This document shows, in pieces, positions 18,705 through 51,912 of a stretch of DNA of 64,000 nucleotides. Numbering within the stretch: position 1 is the stretch's first letter; each line of letters begins with the position of its first letter. Under the pieces are notes generated by a model. It did no database searches. It was not told where the DNA came from and saw nothing but the letters and a program-made list of their open reading frames with translations. The DNA comes from Acholoe squamosa (Eukaryota; Annelida; Polychaeta; Phyllodocida; Polynoidae): assembly GCA_949317995.1 (NCBI GenBank), contig OX439049.1, forward strand, positions 64,717,247-64,781,246. Direction: 5' to 3'. The translations under genes were made by a program, and so were the position numbers.

Positions 18705-18814
18705 GTAGAATACATGTTGGTGAAACTGCACCCAGAGGAACGAACTGCTCGCCTACTGCTCAGAGGCACCGAGGTGCTCAGGAAGCTCATCGAGATAGAA
18801 GCCGCCAACTCAGG
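18705..18814 (+). CDS. GCLC: Glutamate-cysteine ligase catalytic subunit, exon a (first visible)
   Basis: Glutamate-cysteine ligase joins L-glutamate to L-cysteine using ATP, the first and rate-limiting step of glutathione synthesis in the cytosol. This exon follows an acceptor (TATTCCACAG) and starts in phase 0 with VEYMLVKLHPEER. It ends with IEIEAANS plus two bases at donor GTGAGT (18815). It corresponds to about residues 51-87 of the human protein. The Glu of VEYM aligns with one of the metal-binding glutamates of the yeast enzyme (Glu52). The exon encoding the N-terminal ~50 residues, including the partner Glu50, was not found upstream. The last ~21 nt and the donor are repeated many times in the following intron. 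Confidence 0.95.
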
Positions 18815-19914
18815 GTGAGTCATAACTCATAGATAGAAGGCACCAACTCAGGGTGAGTCAAAGATAGAAGCCGCCAACTCCGGATGAGTCATAACTCATA
18901 GATAGAAGCCACCAACTCAGGGTGAGTCAAAGATAGAAGCCGCCAACTCAGGGTGAGTCATAACTCATAGATAGAAGCCACCAACTCAGGGTGAGTCAAA
19001 GATAGAAGCCACCAACTCAGGGTGAGTCAAAGATAGAAGCCGCCAACTCAGGGTGAGTCATAGATAGAAGCTGCCAACTCAGGGTGAGTCAAAGATAGAA
19101 GCTGCCAACTCAGGGTGAGTCATAGATAGAAGCTGCCAACTCAGGGTGAGTCAAAGATAGAAGCTGCCAACTCAGGGTGAGTCAAAGATAGAAGCCGCCA
19201 ACTCAGGGTGAGTCATAGATAGAAGCTGCCAACTCAGGGTGAGTCAAAGATAGAAGCTGCCAACTCAGGGTGAGTCAAAGATAGAAGCCACCAACTCAGG
19301 GTGAGTCATAGATAGAAGCTGCCAACTCAGGGTGAGTCAAAGATAGAAGCTGCCAACTCAGGGTGAGTCAAAGATAGAAGCCGCCAGCTCAGGGTGAGTC
19401 AAAGATAGAAGCTGCCAACTCAGGGTGAGTCAAAGATAGAAGGCACCAACTCAGGGTGAGTCAAAGATAGAAGCCGCCAACTCCGGGTGAGTCATAACTC
19501 ATAGATAGAAGCCACCAACTCAGGGTGAGTCAAAGATAGAAGCCGCCAACTCCGGATGAGTCATAACTCATAGATAGAAGCCACCAACTCAGGGTGAGTC
19601 AAAGATAGAAGCCGCCAACTCAGGGTGAGTCATAGATAGAAGCTGCCAACTCAGGGTGAGTCAAAGATAGAAGCTGCCAACTCAGGGTGAGTCAAAGATA
19701 GAAGCCACCAACTCAGGGTGAGTCAAAGATAGAAGCTGCCAACTCAGGGTGAGTCAAAGATAGAAGCTGCCAACTCAGGGTGAGTCAAAGATAGAAGCTG
19801 CCAACTCAGGGTGAGTCAAAGATAGAAGCCGCCAGCTCAGGGTGAGTCAAAGATAGAAGGCACCAACTCAAGGTGAGTTATAAGTCATAGATAGAAGTCA
19901 CCAACTCACTGTGA
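18815..19914. repeat. 31-bp array made of exon a tail plus 5' splice site (~35 copies)
   Basis: Each unit contains GATAGAAGCCGCCAACTCAGG, or close variants, followed by GTGAGTCA. That is the last 21 bases of exon a plus its donor. The basic period is 31 bp (e.g. 19084 to 19115). Some units carry an extra TAACTCA, as directly after the real donor. Variation is mainly GCCGCC/GCTGCC/GCCACC/GGCACC. Reading on from exon a gives an immediate in-frame stop (TCA GGG TGA), so none of the downstream donors would be productive. Confidence 0.93.
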
Positions 19915-20820
19915 GTGGAGCGTATATGGACGAAGGGATACATCTATGCTCGTTTTCCTTGTCATCATGGGTGAGCTACAATTTACAGAAGTTTGCCAAG
20001 ACTTTGCTGCTTTCATGTGAACACCAAGTATAGTACCATAAATGCTGTACCGCGCAGTGCCGCACTGCAAGATAACATGACGCGCAGTGGAAAAGGGCCT
20101 TGTCAGTGCCGCTCTAGGGTAACATACTGACCTGGTCGGCCTGTGGGGCCGCAGTAAAAGGTCAGCATGATGTATTAATGCACGGAAGGCTTGGGTGTTG
20201 CAGTACAAGTGGTGGCACCTCTGCACCAGGTAACAGCGGACCATATATTTGTAGTACTCGGTACGGTGGTACCCCTACTCAGTATGCGTGCAGTGTGGGC
20301 GTGTTTTTTTCAGGGTTACAACATTACATGTGTGTAAATACATGTGTGTGTTTTTACTGGGGTAGTGACATTTTTATTCAAAACAGTGCTTTTTATTCTG
20401 CACTTCTATGATGCGATAATGCATCATGCTTGTTGATGTTATTATGATGCGTGAATGCAGCCCTGGTGAGTAACTCACCAGGGTTCATGGATCATTCTAA
20501 TCCTCTTTATGCAGCACACACCAGGGGAGTCGTCATGATGCACCGATGCATCATGCACTGCATTGGTGCATCATGCATGCATTGGTGCATCATGATGTAC
20601 ATAGACCGCGAGGCATGATGCAATCCTTATTGAGCTAAACACAACACACTGTGTCTTTACATAGTTGTTTGTGAGTGTGTACAAACATTCATGTGTACCG
20701 CATCATACCGTCATCCATCAAACCACCATGTCACAAGACGTGAACTCTGTAAGGACAGCATGATGCATCAACACTTATTGTAATCAAACCCTGCAAGCAC
20801 TTTGTGCACCATGCCATCAG
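19915..20820. other. Intronic sequence with CATGATGCA motifs, no exon seen
   Basis: Up to about 20400 there is no recognisable feature. From 20400 to 20640 there are scattered TGCATCATG and GCATGATGC palindromes and CTGGTGAGTAACTCACCAGG, fragments of the piggyBac-like MITE family described at 28547. No coding exon of GCLC fits here. Confidence 0.5.
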
Positions 20821-20892
20821 TAACCCTTTAAGAGTGCATCATGACCAATGGGCATGATGCACTCTTGCATCAGCGGCCTTTAAAGGCTTAAC
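20821..20892. mobile_element. Compact copy of CATGATGCA piggyBac-like MITE
   Basis: This 72-bp copy starts TAACCCTTTAAGAGTGCATC and ends GCATCAGCGGCCTTTAAAGGCTTAA. The ends are inverse CCCTTTAA/TTAAAGG motifs around a GCATCATG...CATGATGC core. It is the shortest copy with both ends in the window. Confidence 0.6.
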
Positions 20893-20984
20893 CACTCACT
20901 ATAAAGGTACTGTAAAATAACCTGCACTTGCTGCCTGCTAAGTTTAGGATTAGAGCCCAAATTCGGTTTCCAGTATTTTCTCAA

Positions 20985-21190
20985 AGAGGGCGGGGGCTGT
21001 GGCTGCACCCTCGTAAAAGCCGCACCCTGAGTTAGGGGGAATGTTATAAGCCGCATCTGGGGGGCGTGAAAATTGATGGTTTAGTACTTCTCTATAGTGT
21101 CAGATAACCTCATATAAGCCACACCATGACTTTAGGAGCCTCCCTATAATCAACATTTTCATTTGGGTTCCATAAATCCATAATAGGGCA
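20985..21190. mobile_element. MITE-like fragment of the TATAAGCCGCACC family
   Basis: It contains CTCGTAAAAGCCGCACCCTG, TATAAGCCGCATCTGG, the internal TAGTGTCAGATAA and a later TATAAGCCACACC. This matches the order in the copy at 29554-29772. The right end is decayed. Confidence 0.55.
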
Positions 21191-21462
21191 TAGATGAAGC
21201 ACTTGTCAGTTACCCCTTTATCCACACATGAACACTTGTCAGTTACCCCCTTTATCCACACATGAACACTTGTCAGTTATCAACACATTAATCATTGCTG
21301 ATGTGTAGAAGTGCATCATGCCCTGGCTTGGCATGATGCACCAATCAGGTGCTGGTAAGTCAGCAGCACGTGATTGGTGCATCTTATGAGTGGTAGTTAT
21401 TAGGGTGAGATAGATGAGTGGGCTGCAGCTCCGTTGTAGGTTACTACAGTAGTGTACCTAAA

Positions 21463-21590
21463 GCGGCTATTCCACAGTCGTCAGTCAGCCAAAATTTGGC
21501 TGATCCTTTTATTTTTGATATTGCAAAAGTATCAAAAAAATCGTTCGGATCAGCAAAAATTTGGGTGACCAACGGCAGTGGAATAGCCGC
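21463..21590. mobile_element. 128-bp MITE with GCGGCTATTCCAC termini
   Basis: The left end GCGGCTATTCCACAGTCGTC and right end GGCAGTGGAATAGCCGC are inverted repeats. Inner GCCAAAATTTGGCTGATCC pairs with GGATCAGCAAAAATTTGG. There is no coding capacity. It lies 96 bp upstream of exon b, inside the intron. Confidence 0.75.
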
Positions 21591-21686
21591 ATTAGTACTG
21601 ATAATGCAGCAGCAGGTGCTGAGAGAATTGGTCAGACCCCAAGCTGAGGAAAGACTGAGTTAAAACTTTTGTACTTGTGTTTTCAG

Positions 21687-21806
21687 AGACAACCCGACAA
21701 AATGGGTTCCAGAGTTTGCGGAGTACATGGTGGAAGGGACGCCGGGCAAACCTTACGGACACCGCATCGCGCACTTCAACATGGTGGAAGCCAACATGAA
21801 ATACAG
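21687..21806 (+). CDS. GCLC: Glutamate-cysteine ligase catalytic subunit, exon b
   Basis: The acceptor is TTGTGTTTTCAG and the donor is GTCAGT at 21807. The phase joins exactly to exon a (GG + A). The product includes [20 protein letters not shown] and [12 protein letters not shown], corresponding to human residues of about 88-127. The two Glu of [10 protein letters not shown] are seven residues apart, as are Glu96 and Glu103 of the yeast/human enzymes, which bind the catalytic Mg. EGTPG(K/Q)PYG is strongly conserved in the family. Confidence 0.96.
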
Positions 21807-21854
21807 GTCAGTGTCTGTCATCATGATGAGCCTATGAAGTACTCGCTTGGACTG

Positions 21855-22772
21855 CATCGGCGCATCATGATGCACCAATGCATCATGATGCACCAATGCA
21901 TCATGATGCACCAATACAGCATGATGCACCAATGCATCATGATGCACCAATGCATCATGATGCACCAATGCATCATGATGCACCAATACAGCATGATGCA
22001 CCAATACAGCATGATGCACCAATACAGCATGATGCACCAATACAGCATGATGCACCAATGCATCATGATGCACCAATGCATCATGATGCACCAATGCATC
22101 ATGATGCACCAATACAGCATGATGCACCAATACAGCATGATGCACCAATACAGCATGATGCACCAATACAGCATGATGCACCAATGCATCATGATGCACC
22201 AATGCATCATGATGCACCAATTCATCATGATGCACCAATTCATCATGATGCACCAATTCATCAGGATGCACCAATGCATCAGGATGCACCAATGCATCAC
22301 GATGCACCAATGCATCACGATGCACCAATTCATCACGATGCACCAATGCATCACGATGCATCAATGCATCACGATGCACCAATTCATCACGATGCACCAA
22401 TACAGCATGATGCACCAATGCATCATGATGCACCAATGCATCATAATGCACCAATTCATCATGATGCACCAATGCATCATGATGCACCAATGCATCATGA
22501 TGCACCAATGCATCATGATGCACCAATGCATCATGATGCACCAATGCATCATGATGCATCAATGTAGCATGATGCATCAATGCAGCATGATGCACCAATG
22601 CAGCATGATGCACCAATGCAGCATGATACACCAATACAGCATGATGCACCAATGCATCATGATGCACCAATGCATCATGATGCACCAATGCATCATGATG
22701 CATCAATGCACCATGATGCACCAATACAGCATGATGCACCAATGCACTATGATGCACCAATGCACCATGATG
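21855..22772. repeat. 18-bp GATGCACCAATGCATCAT minisatellite (~51 copies)
   Basis: Tandem 18-bp units of GATGCACCAATGCATCAT alternate with variants having AATACAGCAT, AATTCATCAT or GCATCACG. It starts ~50 bp after the exon b donor and ends where a SINE-like element is inserted. The unit is built from the TGCATCATG/CATGATGCA palindrome of the local MITE family. Apparent ORFs on both strands (MHQCIM-type repeats, one of which reads through exon b) are repeat artefacts. Confidence 0.93.
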
Positions 22773-22781
22773 CACTTATGA

Positions 22782-22953
22782 GTGAGTAATAGATGTTTAA
22801 CGCCATTTCGACAGCTAAGGTCATATTCATTGCAAGTACTACATTAGCACACAGTTTCACAGAGGAATGTCCTTTTGTAAATGTACACCACATACATCTG
22901 AGGGGATAGGAAAGAGGAGATATAGACCCTATTAAGTGGGGTAGGGGAGTCGG
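22782..22953 (-). mobile_element. SINE-like element, copy 3 (reverse)
   Basis: Reverse-complement copy: GTGAGTAATAGATGTTTAACGC on the left is the tail and AGTGGGGTAGGGGAGTCG on the right is the head. The flanking duplication GATGCACT(T/G)ATGA is at 22769-22781 and 22954-22966. It separates two different CATGATGCA-type arrays. Confidence 0.8.
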
Positions 22954-22980
22954 GATGCACTGATGAAGGACACGCTTGGA

Positions 22981-23450
22981 CTATTGGTGCATCATGCTGA
23001 CTGTTTAGTGTTGCATCTTGCTGACTGTTTATTGGTGCATCATGCTGACTGTTTATTGGTGCATCATGCTGACTGTTTATTGGTGCAACATGCTGACTGT
23101 TTATTGGTGCTCCATGCTGACTGTTTAGTGGTGCATCATGCTGACTGTTTATTGGTGCATCATGCTGACTGTTTAGTGTTGCATCATGCTGACTGTTTAT
23201 TGGTGCATCATGCTGACTGTTTATTGGTGCATCATGCTGACTGTTTATTGGTGCATCATGCTGACTGTTTATTGGTGCATCATGCTGACTGTTTAGTGTT
23301 GCATCATGCTGACTGTTTATTGGTGCATCATGCTGACTGTTTAGTGGTGCATCATGCTGACTGTTTAGTGGTGCATCATGCTGACTGTTTATTGGTGCAT
23401 CATGCTGACTGTTTATTGGTGCATCATGCTGACTGTTTAGTGTTGCATCA
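22981..23450. repeat. 24-bp minisatellite, GGTGCATCATGCTGACTG (~20 copies)
   Basis: Units of TTATTGGTGCATCATGCTGA plus CTGT are tandemly repeated with TTAGTG/TTAGTGTT variants. It again contains the TGCATCATG word. It ends near 23450 with CAGTCCATTCAGGTCAGCATG. The open + frame across it is repeat-derived. Confidence 0.92.
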
Positions 23451-24305
23451 GTCCATTCAGGTCAGCATGATGCATGAATGCACACCAGGCGAGTTACTCA
23501 CAATTTGTGTATCATAATTATCAACTGGGAGAAAGCAATTGCTTGTTGCATATATCTAAAGGTTTTGGTTACCGGTACAGTAATGGCCTGATAGAGGGCT
23601 GGTGTAAACATGGGCTGGTATTGAATAAGTTCCAGGGTAGAGGGGTATTGAAAACAATCTTAAACACTAAGCCAGCGCCTGCGGCGCTGCTCGCACGAAA
23701 AGAAGTGGCACCACCACGTGCCAAAAGCATTGCAACTTCTACCGTTGTTACTCTGTGCTTGTCACACAACTTCTACTGTTTTCTATTTCACTGGGTCACA
23801 TTTGCTGGTTGCTATCAGACAGAGTGTGAGTTGCCAACTCCGGGAACATCCCACGTCAAAGCGGAAAACTTCCGGGGTAGCCGTTTTGGTAAAGTTAGTG
23901 GAATTAGCGTCTAATTGGAATAAGCGCCAGGGGTAGAGAGGTATTGAAATTAATGATTGCCTGGGCAGTTGATTGGGTTATTACAGTGTATGAAGGGGTA
24001 TTGTCACCATCACAAAGATACATGGAGTATTGAATATTGAGCATTGATACCGTAGTAAGAACACCTTGTGGAGGATCCACCATTTTGAATTTTGCTGGTT
24101 GAGGAGAAATCCACAGATAAGACATGCCAAGATGGATACCTGGTTCCCGGGGACCACACATTGTACTATGGCCTACTTCTACAACCAGTCCCCCTTTCTA
24201 CTGTGGCCTATTTATATATATATCTTAATGCCCGGGTGATGTGGAACATAAATCTTCTCCAAATACTAGGTGCAAAGTTATATAATTACTTTTCTGCTAA
24301 AGATG
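23451..24305. other. Intronic sequence, no exon recognised
   Basis: Short open frames on both strands occur but lack family resemblance. The exon order of GCLC is complete without this stretch (b joins c in phase). Confidence 0.5.
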
Positions 24306-24530
24306 TACCGTAAATCCCCGGTCATAAGCCGGATTTTTTTTTCTATTTTGGGCCCAAACCGGCTTCTAAATTTTTCCCAAAGTCCCCCCCCGGCTTATGA
24401 CCTTTTTTTTTTTACAATAGATTAAAGAGGAATTAGGGAAAATTATGCACCAAAATCGGCTTATAACATTTCCTGAAACTCTACCCCCGGCTTATGACCG
24501 GGGCCGGCTTATGACCGGGGATTTATGGTA
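24306..24530. mobile_element. 225-bp MITE with CCCCGGTCATAAGCCGG termini
   Basis: The left end TACCGTAAATCCCCGGTCAT and the right end ATGACCGGGGATTTATGGTA are inverted repeats of about 27 bp. CGGCTTATGACC motifs recur inside, and a T-rich tract sits in the middle. There is no coding capacity. The TACCGTAAAT...ATTTAYGGTA ends resemble the TATAAGCCGC family but the next bases differ. Confidence 0.82.
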
Positions 24531-24600
24531 TTAAGTAAGCCTAGGAGTGGTAATTTGGCCGTGTGCCAGGACAGCTAGCCGTAGTACCATGGAGTATGTA

Positions 24601-24850: not shown

Positions 24851-24951
24851 TTAAAGGTACCGTACACTCCCGCATGTAAGCCACACTCTGAGTTTGTGAG
24901 AGAGCCACAACAGGGGTAAACTGTGACAAGCGGACTCACCAGAACTTCCCA

Positions 24952-25338: not shown

Positions 25339-25350
25339 CCCTTAAATGCT

Positions 25351-27259: not shown

Positions 27260-27474
<215 letters not shown>

Positions 27475-27511
27475 AAATGTTGTACCCTTGTTGTATGCTG
27501 TCCTTTTACAG

Positions 27512-27577
27512 ACGGGAGGAAGTGCAGAAGTTGTTAGGTGAAAACGAGTTCCCCATGTCTATGACGTCATTCCCAAG
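27512..27577 (+). CDS. GCLC: Glutamate-cysteine ligase catalytic subunit, exon c
   Basis: The acceptor is GTCCTTTTACAG and the donor is GTAAGA at 27578. The phase continues from exon b (AG + A). It encodes [14 protein letters not shown] and PMSMTSFPR, matching about human residues 127-149; the TSFPR motif is a family hallmark. At 66 nt it is short but in phase on both sides. No duplicated edges are visible around this exon. Confidence 0.94.
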
Positions 27578-27830
27578 GTAAGAGTCCCTCAGAATGCTCA
27601 TCAAATCTAATTGTTGTTTCTCATATTTCTCTCTTATTAATTTTTGTTGGCGTTTTATTGAAATCCCATCAAGGGACCCGTATGGAATGTTCAACTCCTT
27701 TCCATGTGGCAAGCATTCTCAACATGATTCTACCAGCACCGTGAATTTCAGTTTTGTATGCAACTTCCAGATGCAGGGTTAGTATAGCGATGTAGATAAT
27801 ATAATAAGTGTACATTATTCATTTACCCAG

Positions 27831-28375
27831 GACAGGGTGTTCAAACTTCATGAATGTATATCATTTTATGTCCCTAGGACGGGGTGCCCAGACCTCGCCG
27901 ACACCCCCCTCCTACACTCAGAGATGTAGACATTACTATATAGATGAGTCCCAGTGGCCGATCCAAGATTGTCTAGAAGGGGGTGTTTAAGTGGCCGATC
28001 CAGGATTGTCTAGAAGGGGGTGTTTAAGTTGCCGATCCAGGATTGTCTAGAAGGGGGTGTTTAAGACTTGGATAGGGCTCATGAGGTACTATATGTGGCC
28101 CCGAGCACCACAAGCCCCCTGTTTGCGCCCCCCTCTACACTTTTCTTCTCCCTTTTTTTTCCTCTCTTTCTCCTTTTTCCCTCTCCTTTTTTCTTGTGGT
28201 GGGGGGGGGGCAGGCCCTGGATCCGCCACTGGATGATATATACGTGTGCATTATTTTATATATTTATGCACCTAGGACAGGGTGTCCAGACTTCACTGCG
28301 CCCCCTACACTCATATAGACATATACTATATAGATAATTTATAAATGTATATTGTTCATTCATTTCTGTCTCCAG
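27831..28375 (+). repeat. Three degenerate copies of the exon d start with its 3' splice site
   Basis: Copies begin after ...ACCCAG at 27831, after ...CCCTAG at 27878 and after ...CCTAG at 28276. Each has GACAGGGTGTCCAGAC-like sequence corresponding to the exon d start (GACTGGTTGTCCAGATTTC at 28376). The last copy is exactly 100 bp from the real exon start. The preceding ATGTATATTATTCATTTATG-like tract is also duplicated, so the unit is acceptor plus exon start plus a CACTCATATAGACATATACT-type trailer. The copies run into stops within about 15 codons. A hAT-like MITE sits between the second and third. Confidence 0.85.
27952..28231. mobile_element. MITE with CAGTGGC(C/G)GATCC termini (hAT-like)
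   Basis: The left end is CAGTGGCCGATCCAAGATTG and the right end CCTGGATCCGCCACTG. Near the left end a 36-bp piece (GGCCGATCCAGGATTGTCTA...) is repeated three times to about 28063. The termini resemble the CAGTGGCGGATCC ends common in hAT-type non-autonomous elements. I could not find a convincing 8-bp duplication. Confidence 0.55.
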
Positions 28376-28489
28376 GACTGGTTGTCCAGATTTCACCGAC
28401 CCACCGCATAAACCCACACCTGAGTCTGGAGCGTCCCGCTCACTATTCTTCCCTGACAAGGTCATCTGTGGAGGTCATCCGCGCTTCAC
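28376..28489 (+). CDS. GCLC: Glutamate-cysteine ligase catalytic subunit, exon d
   Basis: The acceptor is TTCTGTCTCCAG and the donor is GTAAGT at 28490. It encodes TGCPDFTDPPHKPTP, then ESGASRSLFFPD, then GGHPRF, aligning with about human residues 150-187. Phase agrees with exon c (AG + G) and exon e (AC + A). SLFFPD and HPRF are highly conserved. The exon's 5' end is the source of the degenerate copies in the upstream intron. Confidence 0.96.
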
Positions 28490-28546
28490 GTAAGTCTTAA
28501 TATAGGCATTGATGGTGTAATATAACATGTATTATATTATCTATGT

Positions 28547-29026: not shown

Positions 29027-29085
29027 AACTTTAACACGGAATATCCGACAGCGTCGCGGAGAGAAGGTAGCCATCAATATACCAG
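29027..29085 (+). CDS. GCLC: Glutamate-cysteine ligase catalytic subunit, exon e
   Basis: The acceptor is TTACTACTTTAG and the donor is GTAAGT at 29086. The 59-nt exon encodes TTLTRNIRQRRGEKVAINIP, matching human residues of about 188-206 (LTRNIR and RRGEK are invariant-like). Phase fits exon d on the left and the real exon f (G + TA) on the right. The next intron is ~10 kb and holds the largest intronic arrays. Confidence 0.96.
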
Positions 29086-38869: not shown

Positions 38870-38956
38870 TAGCCCTTCTTATTTAAATGACTTCACGACC
38901 GTGGGTGATGATGGTGAGTGGGGATGGCAGGCATTACCTTACTACATCTACCTTTA
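38870..38956 (+). pseudogene. Degenerate copy 1 of exon f 5' part
   Basis: The sequence ATTTAAATGACTTCACGACC, GTGGGTGATGATGG and GGCAGGCATTACCTTACTAC plus ATCTACCT aligns base by base with the real exon f (39127-39213). It lacks a good acceptor and the region corresponding to LDAMGFGMG. It looks like an old tandem duplication of the exon's 5' half. Confidence 0.75.
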
Positions 38957-38970
38957 CTGTTTTTTTATAG

Positions 38971-39074
38971 TATACAAAGATACCAATACACCGACCCTGT
39001 ACTTAGATGACGTCACAAGCCTGGGTGACGATGGAGAGCCGGGGCGCCAAGTGTTACCGGACCACATTAACTAA
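38971..39074 (+). pseudogene. Copy 2 of exon f 5' part, frame intact to a TAA
   Basis: It follows a good acceptor (TTTTTTTATAG) and reads in the proper phase [14 protein letters not shown], then LGDDGEPGRQVLPDHIN, followed by TAA at 39072-39074. This corresponds to the first ~33 codons of the real exon. No donor follows. If spliced from exon e it would truncate the enzyme at about residue 237, before the GFGMG motif. The absence of any other stop suggests recent origin or constraint; I favour recent duplication. Confidence 0.75.
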
Positions 39075-39102: not shown

Positions 39103-39320
39103 TATATAAAGATACCAACACACCGACCCCATATTTAGATGACTTCACGTTGCTGGGTGACGATGGAGAGCAGGGGCGGCAGGCGTTACCCGACCACATC
39201 TACCTGGATGCTATGGGGTTTGGGATGGGATGCTCGTGTTTACAGATGACCTTTCAAGCCGTCAACATTAACGAAGCCCGAGACCTCTACGACCAACTTA
39301 CGCCGCTCTGTCCTGTTATT
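39103..39320 (+). CDS. GCLC: Glutamate-cysteine ligase catalytic subunit, exon f
   Basis: The acceptor is GTTTCTTACAG and the first donor GTAAGT is at 39321. The 218-nt exon encodes [14 protein letters not shown]..., [37 protein letters not shown] and TPLCPVI, matching human residues of about 207-276. The [13 protein letters not shown] block is the most conserved part of the family. Human has Asn-Cys-Cys after GFGMG; here it is Cys-Ser-Cys, so the second Cys (human Cys249 position) is kept and the first is moved one place. Both edges of this exon are tandemly duplicated, with two copies upstream and four downstream. Confidence 0.97.
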
Positions 39321-39536
39321 GTAAGTAATACACGAGACCTCTACGACCAACTCATGCCGCTCTGTCCTGTTATTGTAAGTAATACACGAGACCTCTATGA
39401 CCAACTCACGCCGCTCTGTCCTGTTATTGTAAGTAATACACGAGACCTCTACGACCAACTCACGCCGCTCTGTCCTGTTATTGTAAGTACTACACGAGAC
39501 CTCTACGACCAACTCACGCCGCTCTGTCCTGTTATT
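39321..39536 (+). repeat. 54-bp in-frame repeat of exon f tail plus donor (4 extra copies)
   Basis: Units start at 39321, 39375, 39429 and 39483. Each comprises GTAAGTAATACA (the first 12 intron bases) and the exon's last 42 bases coding [14 protein letters not shown]. At exactly 18 codons (VSNT + [14 protein letters not shown]) with no stop, the exon can extend through any unit and splice at the next GTAAGT. Usable donors therefore lie at 39321, 39375, 39429 and 39483. The last unit ends GTTATTGCCG and has lost its donor. Copies differ at only a few bases. Confidence 0.93.
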
Positions 39537-39562
39537 GCCGTTCATTCTTAGGAATGAACGGC
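39537..39562. repeat. 11-bp perfect hairpin after the donor repeat
   Basis: GCCGTTCATTC, loop TTAG, GAATGAACGGC. It directly follows the last donor-repeat unit and precedes the 39570-41520 inverted-repeat element. Its role is unknown; it could sequester or terminate the repeat tract. Confidence 0.6.
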
Positions 39563-40059
39563 TAAAGGAGGGGACCCATTCTTAAATACAAGCTCTCAGA
39601 GTGGTGCTTCCTCGCTCTCCATGTATAATCCTGTCTCATAGGTACAGTATTGAGTATGCCTATACCTGGATTAAAATCTGCTAATCAGTCAAGCATAGAA
39701 GTGGTGGCAGTGGTGGTGTTGGTGGACATGTTATTGTAGACCCTGGGGACAGCCTGGGGGTAGACCTGGACACCTCAGGCAGAGCCATGGTATATAGTAC
39801 ATATATAGCCCCCCCCCCCCCCCCCACCCACCTCTGAATGGTGGTGGTGGCTGTGCTCCTGGGGTGGCCCCATACCTGCCTGCCACCACCTCCCCCAGCA
39901 CCATGTGGTTCTCTTCTGCTGGTGGTGCATTTCTCAGCACCACTGACTATTAACCCACTAAAGGCCACCTACATGTATTTATGTATACATGTACACATAA
40001 GTATGATGCACTTTTTTAGGAGTTTTAAGTGGCGTGGCATTGGATTATTTGGAGTCTTG

Positions 40060-41520: not shown

Positions 41521-42746
41521 CCAAAGGCCATAGAGTTCATATATAATGATCTTTTTTCCTTGGATCAGAATAGGAATATGCACGGCATTACAGCATTGCT
41601 GTGTTTACTTTCCTGAAAGTATGTTATAGATTAATAAATTGCAAAACACACAACATATGAAGGGCTTTTAGATTCCGTATTAAAATAATATTTGTTCTGA
41701 AAATTTTGATCTAAGATCATATTAAAAATGTTGTAAATCAATTCTATACTTCTTAGAACATGATATGAATATGCACGGCATTACAGCTTTGCTGTGTTTA
41801 CTTTGCCGAAAATATGGGATAAATTTCTAATCCGGGAAACGCACTGCAATTTAACTGCTTTTAGAATTGATATTAAACTCAGAATTGATCGTCGAATTTA
41901 AATATGAAACCCTAATATCTTGATCATAGATGACAGATCCTAAATTGAATCCTCTCAATTGCATCCTTAACACGGGCCTCTTGATCATAGATCTTAGATT
42001 CTAAATTTTCAATTGAATCCTTAACATAATCTCCTAACCATGGACCCCTTGTTGTAAGTAATACACGGGACGCCGCTCTGTCCTGTTATTATAAGTAAAG
42101 GGGTCTGAACTTTGATATACAGCAAATTGTTGCACATGAATTGCATCTCACGGCTCAGGTGCCACAGCATTTAATGTAAATGAACAATGTCAGTGCAATC
42201 CCCCAATGACAATGTATTCAAAAAGAGTACTTCAGCTTGTTCCTGTTACAATACCAATAAGACCACCAGTCCTACAAAACAGTTTTCTCTTAGTTTATAC
42301 CAAAAAGGGTAACAAGAAATGTGGTTGTGACTGCGTAAAAAAACGCCTCCCGCCGTTAATGTCAATTTCTCTATTCAGAAATTTTGTATTGTGAGGCAAA
42401 TGCAATCATCATAGCGCACTCCCATACCGCTTCGCAGTACCGCCGCTACGCGGCGTGGGAGGCGCTAAAAAATCCTATTCCCTGTATTCTTTGGGGCTGC
42501 AAGGATGTATGATGTCTGAAAGATTAAAATTAATGTTTGGAATGGAGAGCAAAACAGTAGGGAGCCATCGATCTTTTAAAATAGCACCTTAGATATCTTA
42601 TCATCTATGATAATCTGAAAAGGAAAGGGAATGAGTTGAAAAGAGAAATAAGGTTGATAGGGGGTGTCCATTTAGATAAGATTTACCATAGAAGTGTCTC
42701 AGAGTTGTAGAACGTGACAGAAGTTTGTAAGAATGACTTGGAAAAC
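41521..42746. other. Intronic sequence; includes a ~200-bp-spaced duplication
   Basis: No exon is seen. AATATGCACGGCATTACAGC and TTGCTGTGTTTACTTT occur at about 41575 and again at about 41768, marking a degenerate direct duplication. A degenerate donor-repeat copy lies at 42047-42096 and is listed separately. Confidence 0.55.
42047..42096 (+). repeat. Distant degenerate copy of the exon f donor repeat
   Basis: TTGTAAGTAATACACGGGAC is followed by GCCGCTCTGTCCTGTTATTA plus TAAGTA. It matches the 54-bp unit but lacks CTCTACGACCAACTCA, and its second donor is mutated to ATAAGT. It lies 2.5 kb beyond the main repeat, on the far side of the inverted-repeat element. Confidence 0.85.
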
Positions 42747-43104: not shown

Positions 43105-45385
43105 ACTGTGTTTTGCTGGTACCTCATACATGGTGGTGTTTTGCTGGTACCTCATACATGGTGGTGTTTTGCTGGTACCTCATACATGGCGGTGTTTTGC
43201 TGGTACCTCATACATGGCGGTGTTTTGCTGGTACCGTGATACATGGCGGTGTTTTGCTGGTACCTCATACATGGCGGTGTTTTGCTGGTACCGTGATACA
43301 TAGCGGTGTTTTGCTGTTACCTTATACATGGCGGTGTTTTGCTGGTACCTCATACATCATGGTGTTTTGCTGGTACCTCATACATGGTGGTGTTTTGCTG
43401 GTACCTCATACATGGCGGTGTTTTGCTGGTACCTCATACATGGCGGTGTTTTGCTGGTACCTCATACATGGCGGTGTTTTGCTGGTACCTCATACATGGC
43501 GGTGTTTTGCTGGTACCGTGATACATAGCGGTGTTTTGCTGGTACCTCATACATCATTGTGTTTTGCTGGTACCTCATACATGGTGGTGTTTTGCTGGTA
43601 CCTCATACATTGTTGTGTTTTGCTGGTACCTCATACATGGCGGTGTTTTGCTGGTACCTCATACATGGCGGTGTTTTGCTGGTACCTCATACATGGCGGT
43701 GTTTTGCTGGTACCTCATACATGGCGGTGTTTTGCTGGTACCGTGATACATGGCGGTGTTTTGCTGGTACCGTGATACATGGTGGTGTTTTGCTGGTACC
43801 TCCTACATTGTTGTGTTTTGCTGGTACCGTGATACATAGCGGTGTTTTGCTGGTACCTCATACATCATGGTGTTTTGCTGGTACCTCATACATGGCGGTG
43901 TTTTGCTGGTACCTCATACATGGCGGTGTTTTGCTGGTACCGTGATACATAGCGGTGTTTTGCTGGTACCTCATAGATCATGGTGTTTTGCTGGTACCTC
44001 ATACATGGTGGTGTTTTGCTGGTACCTCATACATGGCGGTGTTTTGCTGGTACCGTGATACATGGCAGTGTTTTGCTGGTACCTCATACATCATGGTGTT
44101 TTGCTGGTACCTCATACATCGTGGTGTTTTGCTGGTACCTCATACATCGTGGTGTTTTGCTGGTACCTCATACATGGCGGTGTTTTGCTGGTACCGTGAT
44201 ACATGGCTGTGTTTTGCTAGTACCTCATACATGGCGGTGTTTTGCTGGTACTGTGATACATGGCTGTGTTTTGCTAGTACCTCATACATGGCGGTGTTTT
44301 GCTGGTACTGTGATACATGGTGTTGTTTTGCTGGTACCGTGATACATGGCGGTGTTTTGCTGGTACCTCATACATGGCGGTGTTTTGCTGGTGCCGTGAT
44401 ACATGGCGGTGTTTTGCTGGTACCGTGATACATGGCTGTGTTTTGCTGGTACCTCATACATCGTGGTGTTTTGCTGGTACCTCATACATGGCGGTGTTTT
44501 GCTGGTACCTCATAAATCATGGTGTTTTGCTGGTACCTCATACATGGTGGTGTTTTGCTGGTACCTCATACATGGCGGTGTTTTGCTGGTACCTCATACA
44601 TGGCGGTGTTTTGCTGGTACCGTGATACATGGCGGTGTTTTGCTGGTACCTCATACATGGCGGTGTTTTGCTGGTACCGTGATACATAGCGGTGTTTTGC
44701 TGGTACCTCATACATGGCGGTGTTTTGCTGGTACCTCATACATCATGGTGTTTTGCTGGTACCTCATACATGGTGGTGTTTTGCTGGTACCTCATACATG
44801 GCGGTGTTTTGCTGGTACCTCATACATGGCGGTGTTTTGCTGGTACCTCATACATCATGGTGTTTTGCTGGTACCTCATACATCATGGTGTTTTGCTGGT
44901 ACCGTGATACATGGCGGTGTTTTGCTGGTACCTCATACATGGCGGTGTTTTGCTGGTACCTCATACATGGCGGTGTTTTGCTGGTACCGTGATACATGGC
45001 GGTGTTTTGCTGGTACCGTGATACATGGCGGTGTTTTGCTGGTACCGTGATACATGGCGGTGTTTTGCTGGTACCTCATACATGTTGGTGTTTTGCTGGT
45101 ACCTCATACATGTTGGTGTTTTGCTGGTACCTCATACATCTTGGTGTTTTGCTGGTACCTCATTCATCTTGGTGTTTTGCTGGTACCGTGATACATGGCG
45201 GTGTTTTGCTGGTACCTCATACATGGCGGTGTTTTGCTGGTACCTCATACATCGTGGTGTTTTGCTGGTACCTCATACATTGCAGTGTTTTGCTGGTACC
45301 TCATACATGGCGGTGTTTTGCTGGTACCGTGATACATTGTTGTGTTTTGCTGGTACCTCATTCTTTGTGTGTTTTGCTGGTACCT
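43105..45385. repeat. 28/29-bp GTGTTTTGCTGGTACCTCAT array (~80 copies)
   Basis: The unit is GTGTTTTGCTGGTACCTCAT plus ACATGGCG (28 bp), with a 29-bp form having GGTACCGTGATACATGG. The two forms are interspersed. The array runs to about 35 bp before the exon g acceptor. Open frames (VFCWYLIHGGVLL...) are artefacts. The real acceptor region CATACATTGGTGTGTTACAG resembles the unit's CATACATGGTGGTGTTTTGC. Confidence 0.94.
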
Positions 45386-45419
45386 GTGAGTTTATATGTC
45401 ATACATTGGTGTGTTACAG

Positions 45420-45536
45420 TTGGCTCTGAGTGCGGCCACCCCGATACATCGCGGTCTGCTGGCGGACACCGACTGTCGTTGGGACATTATTTCTCAGTCT
45501 GTGGATGATCGTACACTGGAGGAGCGAGGACTAAAG
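45420..45536 (+). CDS. GCLC: Glutamate-cysteine ligase catalytic subunit, exon g
   Basis: The acceptor is TTGGTGTGTTACAG and the donor is GTACTC at 45537. Thirty-nine full codons in phase 0: [20 protein letters not shown], then [12 protein letters not shown] and LEERGLK, matching human residues of about 277-315. SAAxPxxRG and DxDCRW...SVDDRT..ERG are family hallmarks. Because exon f ends on a codon boundary and its repeat unit is 54 bp, exon g stays in frame whichever upstream donor is used. Confidence 0.97.
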
Positions 45537-45993: not shown

Positions 45994-46132
45994 CCCCTTA
46001 AAGAGAACCGATTCCGTATCCCCAAGTCGCGCTACGACTCTATAGACAGTTACCTGTCAGCTAAAGGGGAGAAGTATAATGACACAGAACTACTGTACGA
46101 TAAGGACGCCTACCAACAACTCAGAGACGCAG
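45994..46132 (+). CDS. GCLC: Glutamate-cysteine ligase catalytic subunit, exon h
   Basis: The acceptor is GTTTATCTTGCAG and the donor is GTACAT at 46133. It encodes PLKENRFRIPKSRYDSIDSY, then LSAKGEKYND and ends DKDAYQQLRDAG (last G split), aligning with about human residues 316-362. KSRYDSIDSYLS is nearly invariant in animals. The phase (one base carried) joins to exon i, 5.7 kb downstream. Confidence 0.97.
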
Positions 46133-46139
46133 GTACATA

Positions 46140-46434
46140 ATTAATCTGACCATAATCTCTTGCGTATAAGGCGCATCTTATATGGAAGGTTTTAGGTCTC
46201 CCTTGGTCTGCAAGGGGGAGACCAAGACCTTTCCTTTCATATGTTACACTCCCACTAAATCATTATGTGATATTGGGGGGTCCAGGAGGTCCTTAGCTAC
46301 ACACAGGTTTATGAATTTTCAAAATCCATTCAGTAGAACAAAAGTTATGAATTTTTCATATTCTTGACAATATTCTAAAACTCTAGGTACTTCTTATATA
46401 CAGGATGCGCCTTATACGCGGGAGAAAATTGTAT
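46140..46434. mobile_element. MITE with GCGTATAAGGCGCATCTTATA ends
   Basis: Left CTTGCGTATAAGGCGCATCT and right GGATGCGCCTTATACGCGGG plus AGAAAATTG are inverted. It is a longer relative of the CTTATA-ended family, non-coding, starting a few bases after the exon h donor. Confidence 0.65.
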
Positions 46435-46458
46435 CTTTTATCCTAATTGAAAGTTGGG

Positions 46459-46596
46459 ATAACCTTTGAGGGCCTGCTAGTCTGATGATACGTCATTGGT
46501 CATTGTGATGTATAAATGCATCCCTGGTGATGAATTGACCGGCGATGCATACTCTATAGGGTTGATAAAGGCGTAATGGCACCTTTAAAGTGTTAA
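46459..46596. mobile_element. Old CATGATGCA MITE copy
   Basis: ACCTTTGAGGGCCTGCTAGT on the left and ACCTTTAAAGTGTTAA on the right enclose decayed GTCATTGTGATGTATAAATG and GGCGATGCATACTC words. The 39-bp array begins directly at its right end. Confidence 0.55.
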
Positions 46597-47413
46597 CATA
46601 GTGTCATCATGACACAGCAGTTCTAGTATAGATAACGTAGGGTCATCATGACACAGCTGTTCTAGTATAGATAACATAGGGTCATCATGACACAGCAGTT
46701 CTAGTATAGATAACGTAGGGTCATCATGACACAACAGTTCTAGTATAGATAACATAGGGTCATCATGACACAGCAGTTCTTGTTTAGATAATATAGGGTC
46801 ATCATGACACAGCAGTTCTATTATAGATAATGTTTTTTCATCATGACACAGCAGTTCTATTATAGATAATGTTTTGTCATCATGACACAGCAGTTCTAGT
46901 ATAGATAACATAGGGTCATCATGACACAGCAGTTCTAGTATAGATAACATAGGGTCATCATGACACAGCAGTTCTAATATAGATAACGTAGGGTCATCAT
47001 GACACAGCAATTCTAGTATAGATAACATAGGGTCATCATGACACAGCAGTTCTAGTATAGATAACATAGGGTCATCATGACACAGCAGTTCTAGTTTAGA
47101 TAACATAGAGTCATTATGACACAGCAGTTCTAATATAGATAACATAGGGTCATCATGACACAGCAGTTCTAATATAGATAACGTAGGGTCATCATGACAC
47201 AGCAGTTCTAGTATAGATAACATAGGGTCATCATGACACAGCAGTTCTAGTATAGATAACATAGGGTCATCATGACACAGCAGTTCTAGTTTAGATAACA
47301 TAGAGTCATTATGACACAGCAGTTCTAATATAGATAACATAGGGTCATCATGACACAGCAGTTCTAGTATAGATAACGTAGTTTCATCATGACACAGCAG
47401 TTCTAGTATAGAT
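46597..47413. repeat. 39-bp CATGACACAGCAGTTCTAG array (~21 copies)
   Basis: 39-bp units (46603 to 46642 and onward) contain GGGTCATCATGACACAGCAG and TTCTAGTATAGATAACAT. Thirteen codons per unit keeps a 251-codon minus frame open (LSILELLCHDDPM), an artefact. A supra-repeat is visible: the units with GTTTAGATAACATAGAGTCA near 47093 and 47288 sit in matching neighbourhoods 195 bp (five units) apart. Confidence 0.93.
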
Positions 47414-49087
47414 CTACAGGTGTGGTAGGGACATAGCGCACCTGTCGTCTTATCAAGTGTCGCTATATACAGATATTGAACTGTTACTATAAGTACACAC
47501 CATTACCGCTATACTTAGATATCACACAACACACATATACACGTTAACCCTTTAAGTACCGAGTTCGGTGCTCGGGGATTTTGCTACTCCCTATCTGTCA
47601 CAGTGTTAAAGAAGGTGTTCTTCTATGGGTCTGATTGACTAGTTAACGAGTCAAGTAATACCATAGATCTACACTTCTACGCCTAACGGCTCTGTTGGTT
47701 ACTTGAACTCGTTTTCTGAAGGGGCTTTTCAATATCAATGTTTTCTGTCCTATTTCTACATTTATGGATCTATGTCCTAGAAAATATGCATGTAACAAGT
47801 TGAAAATGATATATAGGTCATAGGATATTTGTTTTATCTTTCATTTCTTTTTTCTTTTTTTTTAAATTTTTTTAAAAAAAAAAGTTATTTTTCGAGTAGT
47901 TACCAAAAAATGTCACAAAGTAACGCTACTTAATGTGAAATAACACCCTTACAGAGACAGGGATACAGCCAAATTTTATTCTAAAGTTATCTCTATGAAA
48001 ATGACAACAGAAAGGTGCAGTCATTTTATTTTCATATATAGATTCCATTTTTTCCTGAAGGTCTAAAAGAAATGTCACTTTAATGTAAATTGTACTAGCT
48101 TTGAGTTCTAGTTCCTCTTCTCCCCATGAGATGGCACCACCAAGGAGGTTTTCTAGGTTCACTGTAGAGGGCAGCACAAGTCACCTACCTCTGTAGATAG
48201 CATCATAGACTGACTCAAGCCTGTCCCATCGTACACTGAAGGCCTATGGCCTATGCCTATGACCTCTATTATACAATCTATATATGCCCATTTACTTGAC
48301 TCGTTTTTTAATGGATTCCAGACACCCTTCTATTCTCTATTAAAGATAATGCACGGCACCTTGTTATGTTCCATGTTTCGCCATAGGCTACACATGGTTA
48401 AAAGGATAGATTATTCACCTCTGTAAATCTGCATGATGTAGCAGCTATCATGACATTTTCTAATATAAATAGATGACGGTGAGAATGCCTGCCCCGTGTG
48501 CTCTTTCAATAGTGCGTAGGGAGAATATAAATGTTACCAATGGGTCAAAAGTAGGTCTAAAATTAATATATCCAGATGAAATCACATGGGGTATGAGAAA
48601 AAATGGCTTTCTATTGATGTAATTATCTCATAATTTCCTGTATGTGAAGTACCTCATAAAGAGTGATTTTACCTGTATCTCAGTATGTGCCCCTAATATA
48701 GGTGATAGGAATCCACATTCCACAATTACTGTAAATGTAAGTGCATTATTGTGCAAAGCAACCTGCTCCAGGCTGTTTTCACCCCTCAGAGACCTTGGCC
48801 GGAGTGGTCACCCAGGCCCGTAGCTGTCATTGTGGTGATGGTCAGGGCTGATGGGGGCAGGGCCCTGTGTGTGCCTGGGGCTGCCTCTAGTCCCACTCAT
48901 GGCAACTGCTGCAGTGCTAGTATTGGCAGAAATCAGCGGTAGTGAAATTGAATGAAAAACAGCTAAAACTCCCAGAATTTATAATATCTTACATTATTTC
49001 TTTCAAACATCTTAATATCTGCATAGGTATTCTATAATGAAGTAAATATTATTTTGAAATGTATGAAATATGCATTTACTGCCGAAC
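47414..49087. other. Intronic sequence, no exon recognised
   Basis: It includes CGTTAACCCTTTAAGTACCG at about 47543, a piggyBac-like TTAACCCTTTAA end with no obvious partner, and an A/T-run near 47845-47885. Short open frames have no support. Confidence 0.5.
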
Positions 49088-49291
49088 CTGCTACTTTAAG
49101 TACCGCTAATTCAGCAGTGCATCGTGCCCACTGGTCGTCATGATGCACCAGTGAAGTGCGGGTGAGCCAGCACTTCATTGGAGCATCATGCCGAACCTCC
49201 AGGTGGGTTGGTATGATGCACCGGTGAAGTGCTGGCGAGATTACTGCCAGCACCAATGGGCATGATGCATTAGCGGTACTTAAAGGGTTAA
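49088..49291. mobile_element. CATGATGCA MITE copy, AAGTACCGCTAA subtype
   Basis: Left CTACTTTAAGTACCGCTAAT, right GCATTAGCGGTACTTAAAGG plus GTTAA; the inner GTCATGATGCACCAGTGAAG and CAGCACTTCATTGGAGCATC arms match the family. The AAGTACCG end differs from the AAGGGCCG type, so at least two subfamilies exist. Confidence 0.78.
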
Positions 49292-49311
49292 GGTCACCAG
49301 GCACTCTGGTA

Positions 49312-50043
49312 AATACACTCCTGTTTTATGGCGTTAAAACGTTATGATGAACCAAGGGTTAATACACTCCTGTTTCATGGCGTTAAAACGTTATGATGAA
49401 CCAAGGGTTAATACACTCCTGTTTTATGGCGTTAAAACGTTATGATGAACCAAGGGTAAATACACTCCTGTTTTATGGGGTTAAAACGTTATGATGAACC
49501 AAGGGTTAATACACTCCTGTTTTATGGCATCAAAACGTTATGATGAACCAAGGGTAAATACACTCCTGTTTCATGGCATCAAAACGTTATGATGAACCAA
49601 GGGTAAATACACTCCTGTTTTATGGGGTTAAAACGTTATGATGAACCAAGGGTTAATACACTCCTGTTTTATGGCATCAAAACGTTATGATGAACCAAGG
49701 GTAAATACACTCCTGTTTTATGGCCTTAAAACGTTATGATGAACCAAGGGTTAATACACTCCTGTTTTATGGCGTTAAAACGTTATGATGAACCAAGGGT
49801 TAATACACTCCTGTTTTATGGCGTTAAAACGTTATGATGAACCAAGGGTTAAAACACTCCTGTTTTATGGCCTTAAAACGTTATGATGAACCAAGGGTAA
49901 ATACACTCCTGTTTTATGGCGTTAAAACGTTATGATGAACCAAGGGTTAATACACTCCTGTTTTATGGCGTTAAAACGTTATGATGAACCAAGGGTTAAT
50001 ACACTCCTGTTTTATGGCGTTAAAACGTTATGATGAACCAAGG
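49312..50043. repeat. 49-bp ACACTCCTGTTTTATGGCG array (15 copies)
   Basis: 49-bp units (49321 to 49370 and onward): TACACTCCTGTTTTATGGCG, TTAAAACGTTATGATGAACC, AAGGGTTAA. Variants are TTTCATGG, GGCATCAAAACG and GGGTAAA. It starts ~20 bp after the TTAA end of the preceding MITE and ends at another MITE right-end fragment (to about 50116). Confidence 0.94.
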
Positions 50044-50249
50044 GAAGGGCTTCATTCACGCATCATGACGACCATCAGGTATGATGCATCGACGACATAT
50101 CAGACATTTTAAGGGTTACACGATTCAACTACATGTGTAAAAGGAATATTGATCTAGGAGTGAAAGGCATCAAAGCATCAAACACTCCCCAACTCAAGAT
50201 AAGCCACACAGATACGGCCACACCTCACCTGTCATGTCTCGAGTACATA

Positions 50250-50560
50250 TCTTACAGGACCCCATAGACCACCTATTGATGAAATTCATTTATTCCATGG
50301 CGGGTATCGAACACCTATTGATGCTACATATGGATGGAAGTCTTTAGGCATCTCTTTTTAGGGATTTTCAAGTCCTATATTTATTCATTCCATGTCAGGT
50401 ATCGACCACCTATTGATGTATAATACATTTATTCCATGTCAGGTATCGACCACCTATTGATGTATAATACATTTATTCCATGTCAGGTATCGACCACCGA
50501 TTGATGTATAATACATTTATTCCATGGCAGTTATTGACCACCTATTGATGTTTATTCCAC
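50250..50560 (+). repeat. Exon i acceptor-plus-start repeats, upstream block
   Basis: Copies of (CA)GGTATCGACCACCTATTGATG preceded by ATTTATTCCATGT lie at about 50258 (CAGGACCCCATAGACCACC), 50303, 50399, 50443, 50488 and 50530, on a 44-bp period in the better part. The real exon i begins CAG|GTATCGACCACCTATTGGCA. The repeat therefore carries the 3' splice site and about 20 exon bases. Units diverge from the exon at ...ATTGATGTATAATACA. Confidence 0.9.
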
Positions 50561-50651
50561 GATTTCTGGGATTCTCAGTGCTTTTCCTGGATATTCCCAT
50601 GCACATACCTGTCGATATTGCACACCATGAATGCTGTAGCATCAATTTTGT

Positions 50652-50720
50652 AAGGCGTGCGGTTATCCAAGGATAACAGGCACCCGGTGCGGTTATCCAT
50701 GGATAACCTGCACGCCTTCC
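50652..50720. repeat. Imperfect palindrome AAGGCGTGCGGTTATCC
   Basis: AAGGCGTGCGGTTATCC at the left is the inverse of GGATAACCTGCACGCCTT at the right, with a second GGATAACAGGCACCCGGTGC pair inside. It can fold into a long hairpin. It probably belongs to a short fold-back element. Confidence 0.65.
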
Positions 50721-50754
50721 ATGTCCTTACATGTCATATGTTACATGTTAAAAC

Positions 50755-51260
50755 CTACAAAATTTTCATGGCCAGGGTAGGGATCGAACTAGCAGTCTCA
50801 AATCCCAAGTCCAACTCCCTATGCAGTGCGCCACAGGGACTGACGAGAAATGCTTGGTTAGAACCACGTCTTGATATGATAGGCGGGACGAGTCCCGGTC
50901 CGGGCTGTCTGCTGCCATAACCGCGGGACGCATTCAAACATAGCCAAGCCGAGACAGGTGCCGCGGCGTTATACACGGTGGTTTAGTGGTTAGTGCATTG
51001 CGCTCAGCCGTCAAAGGTAGGCGGATCGAGTCCCGGTCCGGGCGCATCTTTTTTCGCCGTGTGCGCTGTAGCTGTCCGCTGCCGGGCAACGAGGTGTTTG
51101 TACCGATTGTACACAAACATAACCGGGAGACACATTCAAAGCAAGCCAAGCCGAGACGCTGTAGCTGTCCGCTGCCGGGCGCCGAGGTGTGTACCGGTGG
51201 TCTATTCGTTAGAATGCCAACCCACTATGACTGGCTTCGAGTCCTGGGGAGGGTGAACAA
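50755..51260. mobile_element. Cluster of tRNA-derived SINE sequences
   Basis: Three tRNA-like heads are visible: minus strand at about 50775-50840 (B box GTTCGATCCC, A box TGGCGCACTG); plus strand at about 50973-51044 (TTTAGTGGTTAGTGC and GGATCGAGTCCC); and plus strand at about 51191-51252 (GGTGGTCTATTCGTTAG and GGCTTCGAGTCC). Body fragments GCTGTCCGCTGCCGGGC and ACATTCAAAGCAAGCCAAGC recur between them. None folds as a complete tRNA by eye, so I call SINE remnants and not tRNA genes. The cluster splits the exon i acceptor array. Confidence 0.65.
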
Positions 51261-51325
51261 TTTTTGTTTTCAACTTGAATTTATTGATATTTTATTGATT
51301 ATCTATTGGTATTGTGGAATAAAAT

Positions 51326-51448
51326 AAGTAGTCAATGGATAATTCATGACTTGTGTGTGTTAGCAAAGGATAATTACACGCGGGCTACGCCCTCGTGTAA
51401 TTATCCTTCACTAGCACACACTCTTCATGAATTATCCATTGATTACTT
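51326..51448. mobile_element. 123-bp near-palindromic element
   Basis: AAGTAGTCAATGGATAATTC at the left pairs with GAATTATCCATTGATTACTT at the right. The centre AAGGATAATTACACGCGGGC / CCCTCGTGTAATTATCCTT is also palindromic. It is a short fold-back element without coding capacity. Confidence 0.75.
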
Positions 51449-51799
51449 GTTCAATAATACATTTATTCCATGTCAGGTATTGACCACCTATTGATGTATA
51501 ATACATTTATTCCATGTCAGGTGGGCTTCCCTAGCCCACTTAAAAGGGTCTTTATCTCCTCTTTCCTATCCCCTCAGGATGTGTGTGGTGCACATATGTG
51601 CGGGCACTGACACATTCCTTTGTTAAATTGTGTAATGTAGTTATCGCCATGAATATGACCTTAGCTGTCAAAATGGCGTTAAACATCTATTACTCACTCA
51701 CTCCATGGCAGGTATCGACCACCTATTGATGTATAATACATTTATTCCATGTCAGGTATCGACCACCTATTGATATATAATACATTTATTCCATGTCAG
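51449..51799 (+). repeat. Exon i acceptor-plus-start repeats, downstream block
   Basis: Further 44-bp copies of ATACATTTATTCCATGTCAG plus GTATCGACCACCTATTGATG lead directly into the real acceptor at 51799. One copy is split by a SINE at 51523-51702. The closest copies are essentially identical to the real acceptor and first ~17 exon bases. Use of any upstream copy shifts the frame, because 44 is not divisible by three. Confidence 0.92.
51523..51702 (+). mobile_element. SINE-like element, copy 5
   Basis: Full-length head GGGCTTCCCTAGCCCACTT to tail GTTAAACATCTATTACTCAC. The flanking duplication CCATG(T/G)CAGGT is at 51512-51522 and 51703-51713. It landed exactly on a CAG|GT acceptor repeat and so duplicated that site. 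Confidence 0.86.
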
Positions 51800-51912
51800 G
51801 TATCGACCACCTATTGGCACAGCATGTGGCACACCTGTTTATCCGTGATACAATCAGCGTGTTTAGTGAGAAGGTGAACCAGAACGATGAGGAGGACACA
51901 GACCACTTTGAA
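51800..51912 (+). CDS. GCLC: Glutamate-cysteine ligase catalytic subunit, exon i (last visible)
   Basis: The acceptor is TATTCCATGTCAG and the donor is GTAAGT at 51913. It encodes GIDHLLAQHVAHLFIRDTIS, then VFSEKVNQND and ends DTDHFE, matching human residues of about 362-399, including the LLAQHVAHLFIRD block and the His at human position 370. It ends on a codon boundary. The next exon, expected to begin with the NIQSTNWQ-type sequence conserved in animals, is not in the window; the following intron is at least 12 kb. Confidence 0.97.

Follow-up and report, generated by a model that had tools for sequence, protein, structure and literature searches.

Minisatellite-like tandem duplications that span an exon-intron boundary, termed mirages, have been described in amphioxus Adh3 and in the globin genes BflGb6 and BflGb9, and reverse transcription polymerase chain reaction suggested normal splicing; a 2013 paper adds troponin C and PGBD5 as further mirage genes of amphioxus (PMC3902484). 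In human, CBS carries a 31-bp variable number tandem repeat (VNTR; c.1444_1467+7) of 16-21 copies, whose unit lies across a donor with 24 bases in the exon and 7 in the intron (PMC2630376), and tandem repeats were reported at exon-intron boundaries of segmental-duplication genes, with 27 intron modifications (De Grassi and Ciccarelli, 2009; PMC2812944). The AGGT model of intron gain and its cases (ATP2A1, potato RdRp and the 24-bp repeats of fission yeast) are summarised in PMC4974935, and novel Drosophila introns arising via tandem duplication are described in PMC2891723. Introns of earthworm metallothionein contain minisatellites, boundary spanning not being mentioned in the part of PMC12783039 consulted. 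Here we describe duplicated exon edges in GCLC, the gene for the glutamate-cysteine ligase catalytic subunit, in the annelid Acholoe squamosa. The 5' part of this gene lies in a stretch of 64,000 nucleotides (C15:64717247-64781246, hereafter the window) of a 1.48 Gb genome assembled in 63 contigs.

Results

The window and the next 30 kb were read for GCLC exons, which were located with a human GCLC sequence, their edges then being set by splice sites. This revealed nine exons (a-i) inside the window and six (j-o) beyond it, with 29 boundaries mapped. Joined at their outermost sites, exons a-o form a single open frame of 620 residues followed by a stop, while human residues 1-49 found no match in the exon search of the window and the next 30 kb. 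A junction copy was defined as a recurrence, within 1.6 kb, of the 30 bases centred on a junction, excluding the true site, with a match of at least 20 of 30 required at the d, f and n acceptors and at least 21 of 30 at the other junctions. As a second test, each exon with 80 flanking bases was compared with the gene by blastn.

These analyses revealed duplicated sequence at 7 of the 29 boundaries. The first-pass annotation had reported junction copies at five boundaries of four exons (the a and f donors and the d, f and i acceptors), and all five proved real, blastn and the 30-base test being in agreement; its statement that several boundary-spanning arrays occur within this one gene also holds, two further boundaries (the k donor and the n acceptor) lying beyond the window. 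At the donor of exon a (18705..18814, plus strand, as are all features located below in the window), a 31-bp unit of 22 exonic and 9 intronic bases is repeated over 18793..19916, giving 33 decoys (earlier about 35), of which 31 have an intact GT. The donor of exon f (39103..39320) is followed by an array of 4.8 copies of a 54-bp unit (42 exonic and 12 intronic bases; 39279..39537). Here the earlier count of four copies and a remote one became three decoy donors, one copy truncated at the junction, and the remote copy of 21 exonic and 8 intronic bases (42070..42098; 96.6% identity). The acceptor unit of exon i (51800..51912) has 44 bp, 17 exonic and 27 intronic, and occurs in an array touching the exon (51685..51816; two decoys and the true junction), in an additional copy (51447..51522) and in a remote block of five copies (50264..50551), four of them with an intact AG; the total is 8 copies, where about 9 had been counted. 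At the exon k donor, a 67-bp unit (31 exonic and 36 intronic bases) is present in 3 copies. Thus, at the a, f and k donors and the i acceptor the unit of a tandem array spans the boundary, as in mirages.

At the d, f and n acceptors, the boundary-spanning copies are dispersed or diverged. Upstream of exon d (28376..28489), three old, diverged copies lie in 27816..28305, with junctions at 27830, 27877 and 28275. The earlier count of three is unchanged, the AG is kept in all three, and blastn support is the weakest of all, since only one copy is found (69% identity, E 3e-5). The two copies earlier assigned to the exon f acceptor resolve into one junction copy (38961..39067; 84% identity), which includes the first 97 bases of the exon, and one partial copy with exonic sequence only (38880..38953; 80% identity). 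The exon n acceptor has two copies of 78-83% identity. At the remaining 22 of the 29 boundaries, the 30-base test found no copy, the best match being 16-19 of 30. Directly after the exon f donor array, at 39538-39563, there is a perfect hairpin (GCCGTTCATTC ... GAATGAACGGC), perhaps the end of a small mobile element.

Each of the 53 copies counted falls on the intron side of its exon edge, and the GT or AG is retained in 50; as in mirages, the copies carry splice signals. Among the old copies counted at acceptors (d, f and n), all six have kept the AG. Splice-site scores were calculated with a matrix built from general consensus values. By this measure, 29 of the 33 exon a decoys equal the true donor, 2 score higher and 2 have lost the GT; two of the three d acceptor copies score clearly lower than the true site, and both n acceptor copies score higher. 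Use of a decoy would keep the frame open in only 3 of the 53 copies, all at the exon f donor. The copies therefore look like intronic decoys, to judge from an open GCLC frame that uses the outermost sites. The earlier suggestion that the decoys are tolerated agrees with that frame and with the intact dinucleotides.

It might instead be that the duplicated sites are selected, as decoys or as alternative sites regulating GCLC, with exon f donor isoforms carrying in-frame inserts of 18 residues. The three 54-bp copies at that donor do preserve an open frame and equal the true donor in score, and retention of the dinucleotide, complete at the old acceptors, would be expected of selected sites. We nevertheless regard this as highly improbable: a frameshift or stops would follow from use of the 33 copies at the a donor, the 3 at the k donor or the 14 at acceptors, the units differ in length and side without a common design, young arrays keep their signals simply through youth, and a match around the junction was itself the criterion for counting a copy.

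The copies differ widely in age. The exonic parts of the old copies (d and f acceptors, and n) differ from their exon by 15-43%, whereas the a, f-donor, i and k arrays are young, with matches according to Tandem Repeats Finder (TRF) of 89% in the a array and 94-97% in the other three. The presence of both old copies and young arrays indicates that boundary duplication recurred over time. Across the seven old copies, third codon positions account for 40 of 78 differences (summed by hand), as expected if selection acts on the exon alone. That the old copies were once coding was also considered, since four of the seven show this bias strongly (25 of 36 differences), and was rejected, the overall figure fitting purifying selection on the exon alone.

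The duplicated signals also bear on the model of Rogers, under which the arrays would be intermediates of intron gain via duplicated AG/GT sites. The exon i acceptor unit contains CAG/GTAT, so that one copy could act as acceptor and the next as donor, and such a step was proposed in the amphioxus mirage paper. We consider it very unlikely that this accounts for the arrays, since every unit adjoins an existing intron, whereas the model places new introns within exons, and GCLC of this one genome revealed no new intron.

The array density of the gene is high: TRF arrays make up 51% of the GCLC body, compared with 5.8% of the sequence outside exons in 32 stretches of this genome that contain myosin exons. 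The first-pass annotation had reasoned that arrays beginning at unrelated positions would rarely include boundaries, which overlooks this cover; as 53% of GCLC intron points sit in local repeats, a boundary inside a repeat is unremarkable by raw coverage. The observations are probably best explained by local hyper-duplication filtered by selection, giving rise to mirage-type minisatellites with no machinery that seeks out splice sites. For this we infer a duplication mechanism, a selective filter and a splice choice, as follows. Short tandem duplications would arise at a very high local rate in GCLC, anywhere, in intron or exon. Those inside an exon would usually break the frame and be lost, and those straddling an exon edge would leave a complete junction beside the exon and push the extra copies into the intron, where they could multiply by slippage or unequal exchange. 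Splicing would have to keep to the first donor and the last acceptor, because this choice gives a short exon and an unbroken frame. Under such a filter, the intron-side copies would be by-products of local hyper-duplication.

Myosin-head exons served as an independent sample of the same genome. The search gave 79 matches (65 scored of 210 candidates); 74 of them lay within the stretches analysed and were examined as exons with 148 edges, while the other 5 fell outside these stretches and were set aside. The 83 matches of a dynein search formed no part of the sample. Splice-site scores placed 84 of these edges, the 64 unplaced ones lying outside the 30-base test; among the 84, a single edge had a copy at 22 or more of 30. 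The blastn test covered the full set of 74 exons, profile-match edges being taken as exon edges, and gave 36 matches, of which 10 were wholly intronic and 26 straddled an edge, in three exons. One of the three is a mirage and the other two are one duplicated whole-exon pair. Since the founder-weighted fraction around myosin (each array counted once) is 1.2%, about 1.7 of the 148 edges would be expected in a spanning array and one was observed, so there is no excess in this sample of 74 exons. GCLC boundaries differ from those of myosin (7/29 against 1/148, P 1e-5; against 3/148, P 1e-4), in line with the difference in array cover.

The myosin mirage lies at C7:61174119-61177430 (L025; exon match 1501-1812, reverse strand), where the acceptor (CTTAACTACAG/GCCTGCTGGACATC) has 24 blastn copies upstream of the exon, and it is a second, independent mirage in the genome. 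Its presence at an unrelated locus also bears on whether the GCLC arrays are products of misassembly or collapse. Long arrays are hard to assemble, which speaks for an artefact of this kind; the units, though, differ in substitutions, the exons are intact, a like array recurs at L025, and misassembly would hardly account for old, diverged copies, so that we find it scarcely credible. At another myosin locus (L050, C6:5866500-5871000), two adjacent exons share 90% identity across 91 bases and represent the duplication of a whole exon; the pair may be spliced in a mutually exclusive manner.

Several results weigh against local hyper-duplication with a selective filter as the whole explanation. 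When each array was counted once (the founder null), 6.5% of GCLC intron points were duplicated and 1.9 of the 29 boundaries were expected to be so, compared with the 7 observed (P 0.002); within 500 bp, 2.2 were expected (P 0.005). In addition, GCLC arrays crowd the exon edges, with 6 within 60 bases (1,376 bp) and 3 spanning, compared with 22 in the other 32 kb. Arrays near myosin edges are likewise 2.6 times denser within 60 bases (5 arrays in 8.8 kb, compared with 28 in 129 kb; P 0.045), and the myosin sample is small, its one case fitting a ratio of observed to expected from 0.01 to 3.2, so that it is compatible with a genome-wide excess as large as about threefold. Local hyper-duplication alone does not explain this crowding. 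Array ends piling up against selected exons could account for it, and the crowding in both gene sets may reflect array ends that stop where selection protects the exon.

These figures are what would be expected if tandem duplication were preferentially seeded by the splice-junction sequence itself, with R-loops, paused transcription or short AGGT homology among the conceivable causes, a possibility that we hold to be rather unlikely. Also consistent with it is a 22-bp array at a myosin donor (L049), which begins exactly at the junction and was found by TRF; blastn missed it, as it did a marginal 18-bp array at L043. Paired CAGGTAAGT motifs numbered 1795 genome-wide, compared with 102 for the reversed motif, as a raw count not normalised for single motifs; among the matches listed, they come largely from a few large arrays (C2) and one repeated sequence (C1). 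In addition, a 50-base sequence that both begins and ends with a strong donor motif (CAGGTAAGTTTCCC...CAGGTAAGT) occurs in identical form at no fewer than six places on C1.

Within GCLC itself, the earlier proposal of a preferred seed receives moderate support from the founder null, which decreases under stricter treatment: with a stricter match, 5 boundaries compared with 1.56 expected (P 0.018; within 500 bp, 1.95 expected, P 0.04), and with TRF arrays alone, 3 boundaries inside an array compared with 1.35 (P 0.15), or 4 (P 0.04) when the exon a array is included, its start having been set 12 bases late by TRF. All of these P values are post hoc, the gene having been picked for its pattern. 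Moreover, an exon keeps its own copy recognisable, so that an old duplicate is more readily detected at a boundary than within an intron. As a genome-wide claim, preferred seeding was not borne out by the myosin edges, where neither test revealed an excess. That junctions are preferred birthplaces of minisatellites throughout the genome, with duplication starting there more often, at different times and on both exon sides, thus appears doubtful, and local hyper-duplication with a selective filter is retained as the favoured reading.

Further arrays lie close to exons without spanning their edges. An array of about 80 copies of a 28-bp unit (43108..45415; to 45385 by TRF) ends, by TRF, 34 bases before exon g (45420..45536) and is followed by 17 unit-like bases (16 matching) that end 4 bases before the exon. 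An 18-bp array begins 56 bases downstream of exon b (21687..21806), and a 49-bp array 46 bases downstream of exon e (29027..29085). Five exon flanks were compared with the unit of the neighbouring array. The exon g acceptor flank resembles the unit (P 0.01; 0 of 200 shuffles against the whole array), as do the exon b and exon n donor flanks (P 0.002 each), so by sequence likeness the arrays at these three flanks may extend closer to the exon than their TRF limits. No unit likeness was detected at the exon k acceptor flank (P 0.9) or the exon e donor flank (P 0.54). The other exons in the window are c (27512..27577) and h (45994..46132).

The distance from GCLC to the end of its 66.3 Mb contig is about 1.5 Mb. 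A subtelomeric explanation was not supported by a small sample of three 800-base stretches (C15 at 64.6 and 65.2 Mb, and C2 at 1 Mb from its end), which were without an array. Upstream of the gene, an 18-bp satellite of about 170 copies occupies positions 1-3105 and touches the left edge of the window. Most of the 25.9 kb intron between exons i and j consists of a 23-bp satellite, about 800 copies in 18.5 kb, which runs from 52482 to 64000 and on to 70962; its strands are strongly skewed, with a GC skew of 0.65-0.75 where it lies in the window. A dispersed, partly palindromic sequence with TGCATCATG occurs in many places between 20400 and 52040 (94 and 98 exact copies on the two strands in 94 kb, compared with 0.36 expected per strand); several intron arrays with periods of 18-49 seem to have arisen from it.

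The best match of the predicted protein was that of the annelid Laeonereis acuta (68%), among the best 120 of 4691 matches. In a tree of 16 chosen proteins, this GCLC grouped with Laeonereis and Capitella with a support of 94/98, just below the star of the tool; the annelid Owenia fell outside the Laeonereis and Capitella group, and 6 of the 13 inner branches were weak.

Discussion

At exon a, 31 decoys with an intact GT lie downstream of the donor, yet the frame requires the first donor. The array is thus a natural test of the choice of first donor and last acceptor where local sequence gives no guide. Were mirages to prove common beyond amphioxus, they would provide a steady raw material for alternative splice sites and for AGGT intron gain; their rate across a genome can be counted in chromosome-scale assemblies. 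Should junctions after all be preferred birthplaces of minisatellites, genes would steadily gather full-strength decoy sites, which splicing would ignore through position alone.

In the literature searched, the term "mirage" was combined with the relevant terms only in the two amphioxus papers, and differently worded searches gave no annelid or mollusc case by title or start of abstract, subscription papers lying outside the scope. The first-pass annotation had known of no several independent cases in one gene; the kind itself is published, as amphioxus mirages and as the human CBS VNTR, and seven boundaries in a single gene appear to be unreported. A lophotrochozoan case is apparently unreported as well, and the number per gene is exceptional.

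As far as the parts consulted of the respective sources go, three human and intron-gain systems can be compared with this locus. The CBS VNTR and the exon a array are alike in anatomy, both having a 31-bp unit at a donor (22 exonic and 9 intronic bases with 33 decoys in exon a); the CBS repeat concerns one boundary and is a known polymorphism, whereas in GCLC seven boundaries are affected, as seen in one assembly. The human segmental-duplication cases vary between recent paralogs, while here many boundaries of one gene are concerned. The cases of the Rogers model share with GCLC the duplicated splice signals in tandem, but the GCLC copies extend existing introns. On the two defining features examined, a boundary-spanning unit and AG/GT signals, the GCLC feature is, by its sequence, of the mirage kind. 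As in amphioxus, the unit lies at a donor or acceptor edge and many copies keep the AG or GT, and unit lengths overlap (10-72 bp in amphioxus Adh3, 31-67 bp in GCLC). Unlike the amphioxus mirages, those of Acholoe squamosa, known here from the sequence of one assembly, affect seven boundaries of one gene.

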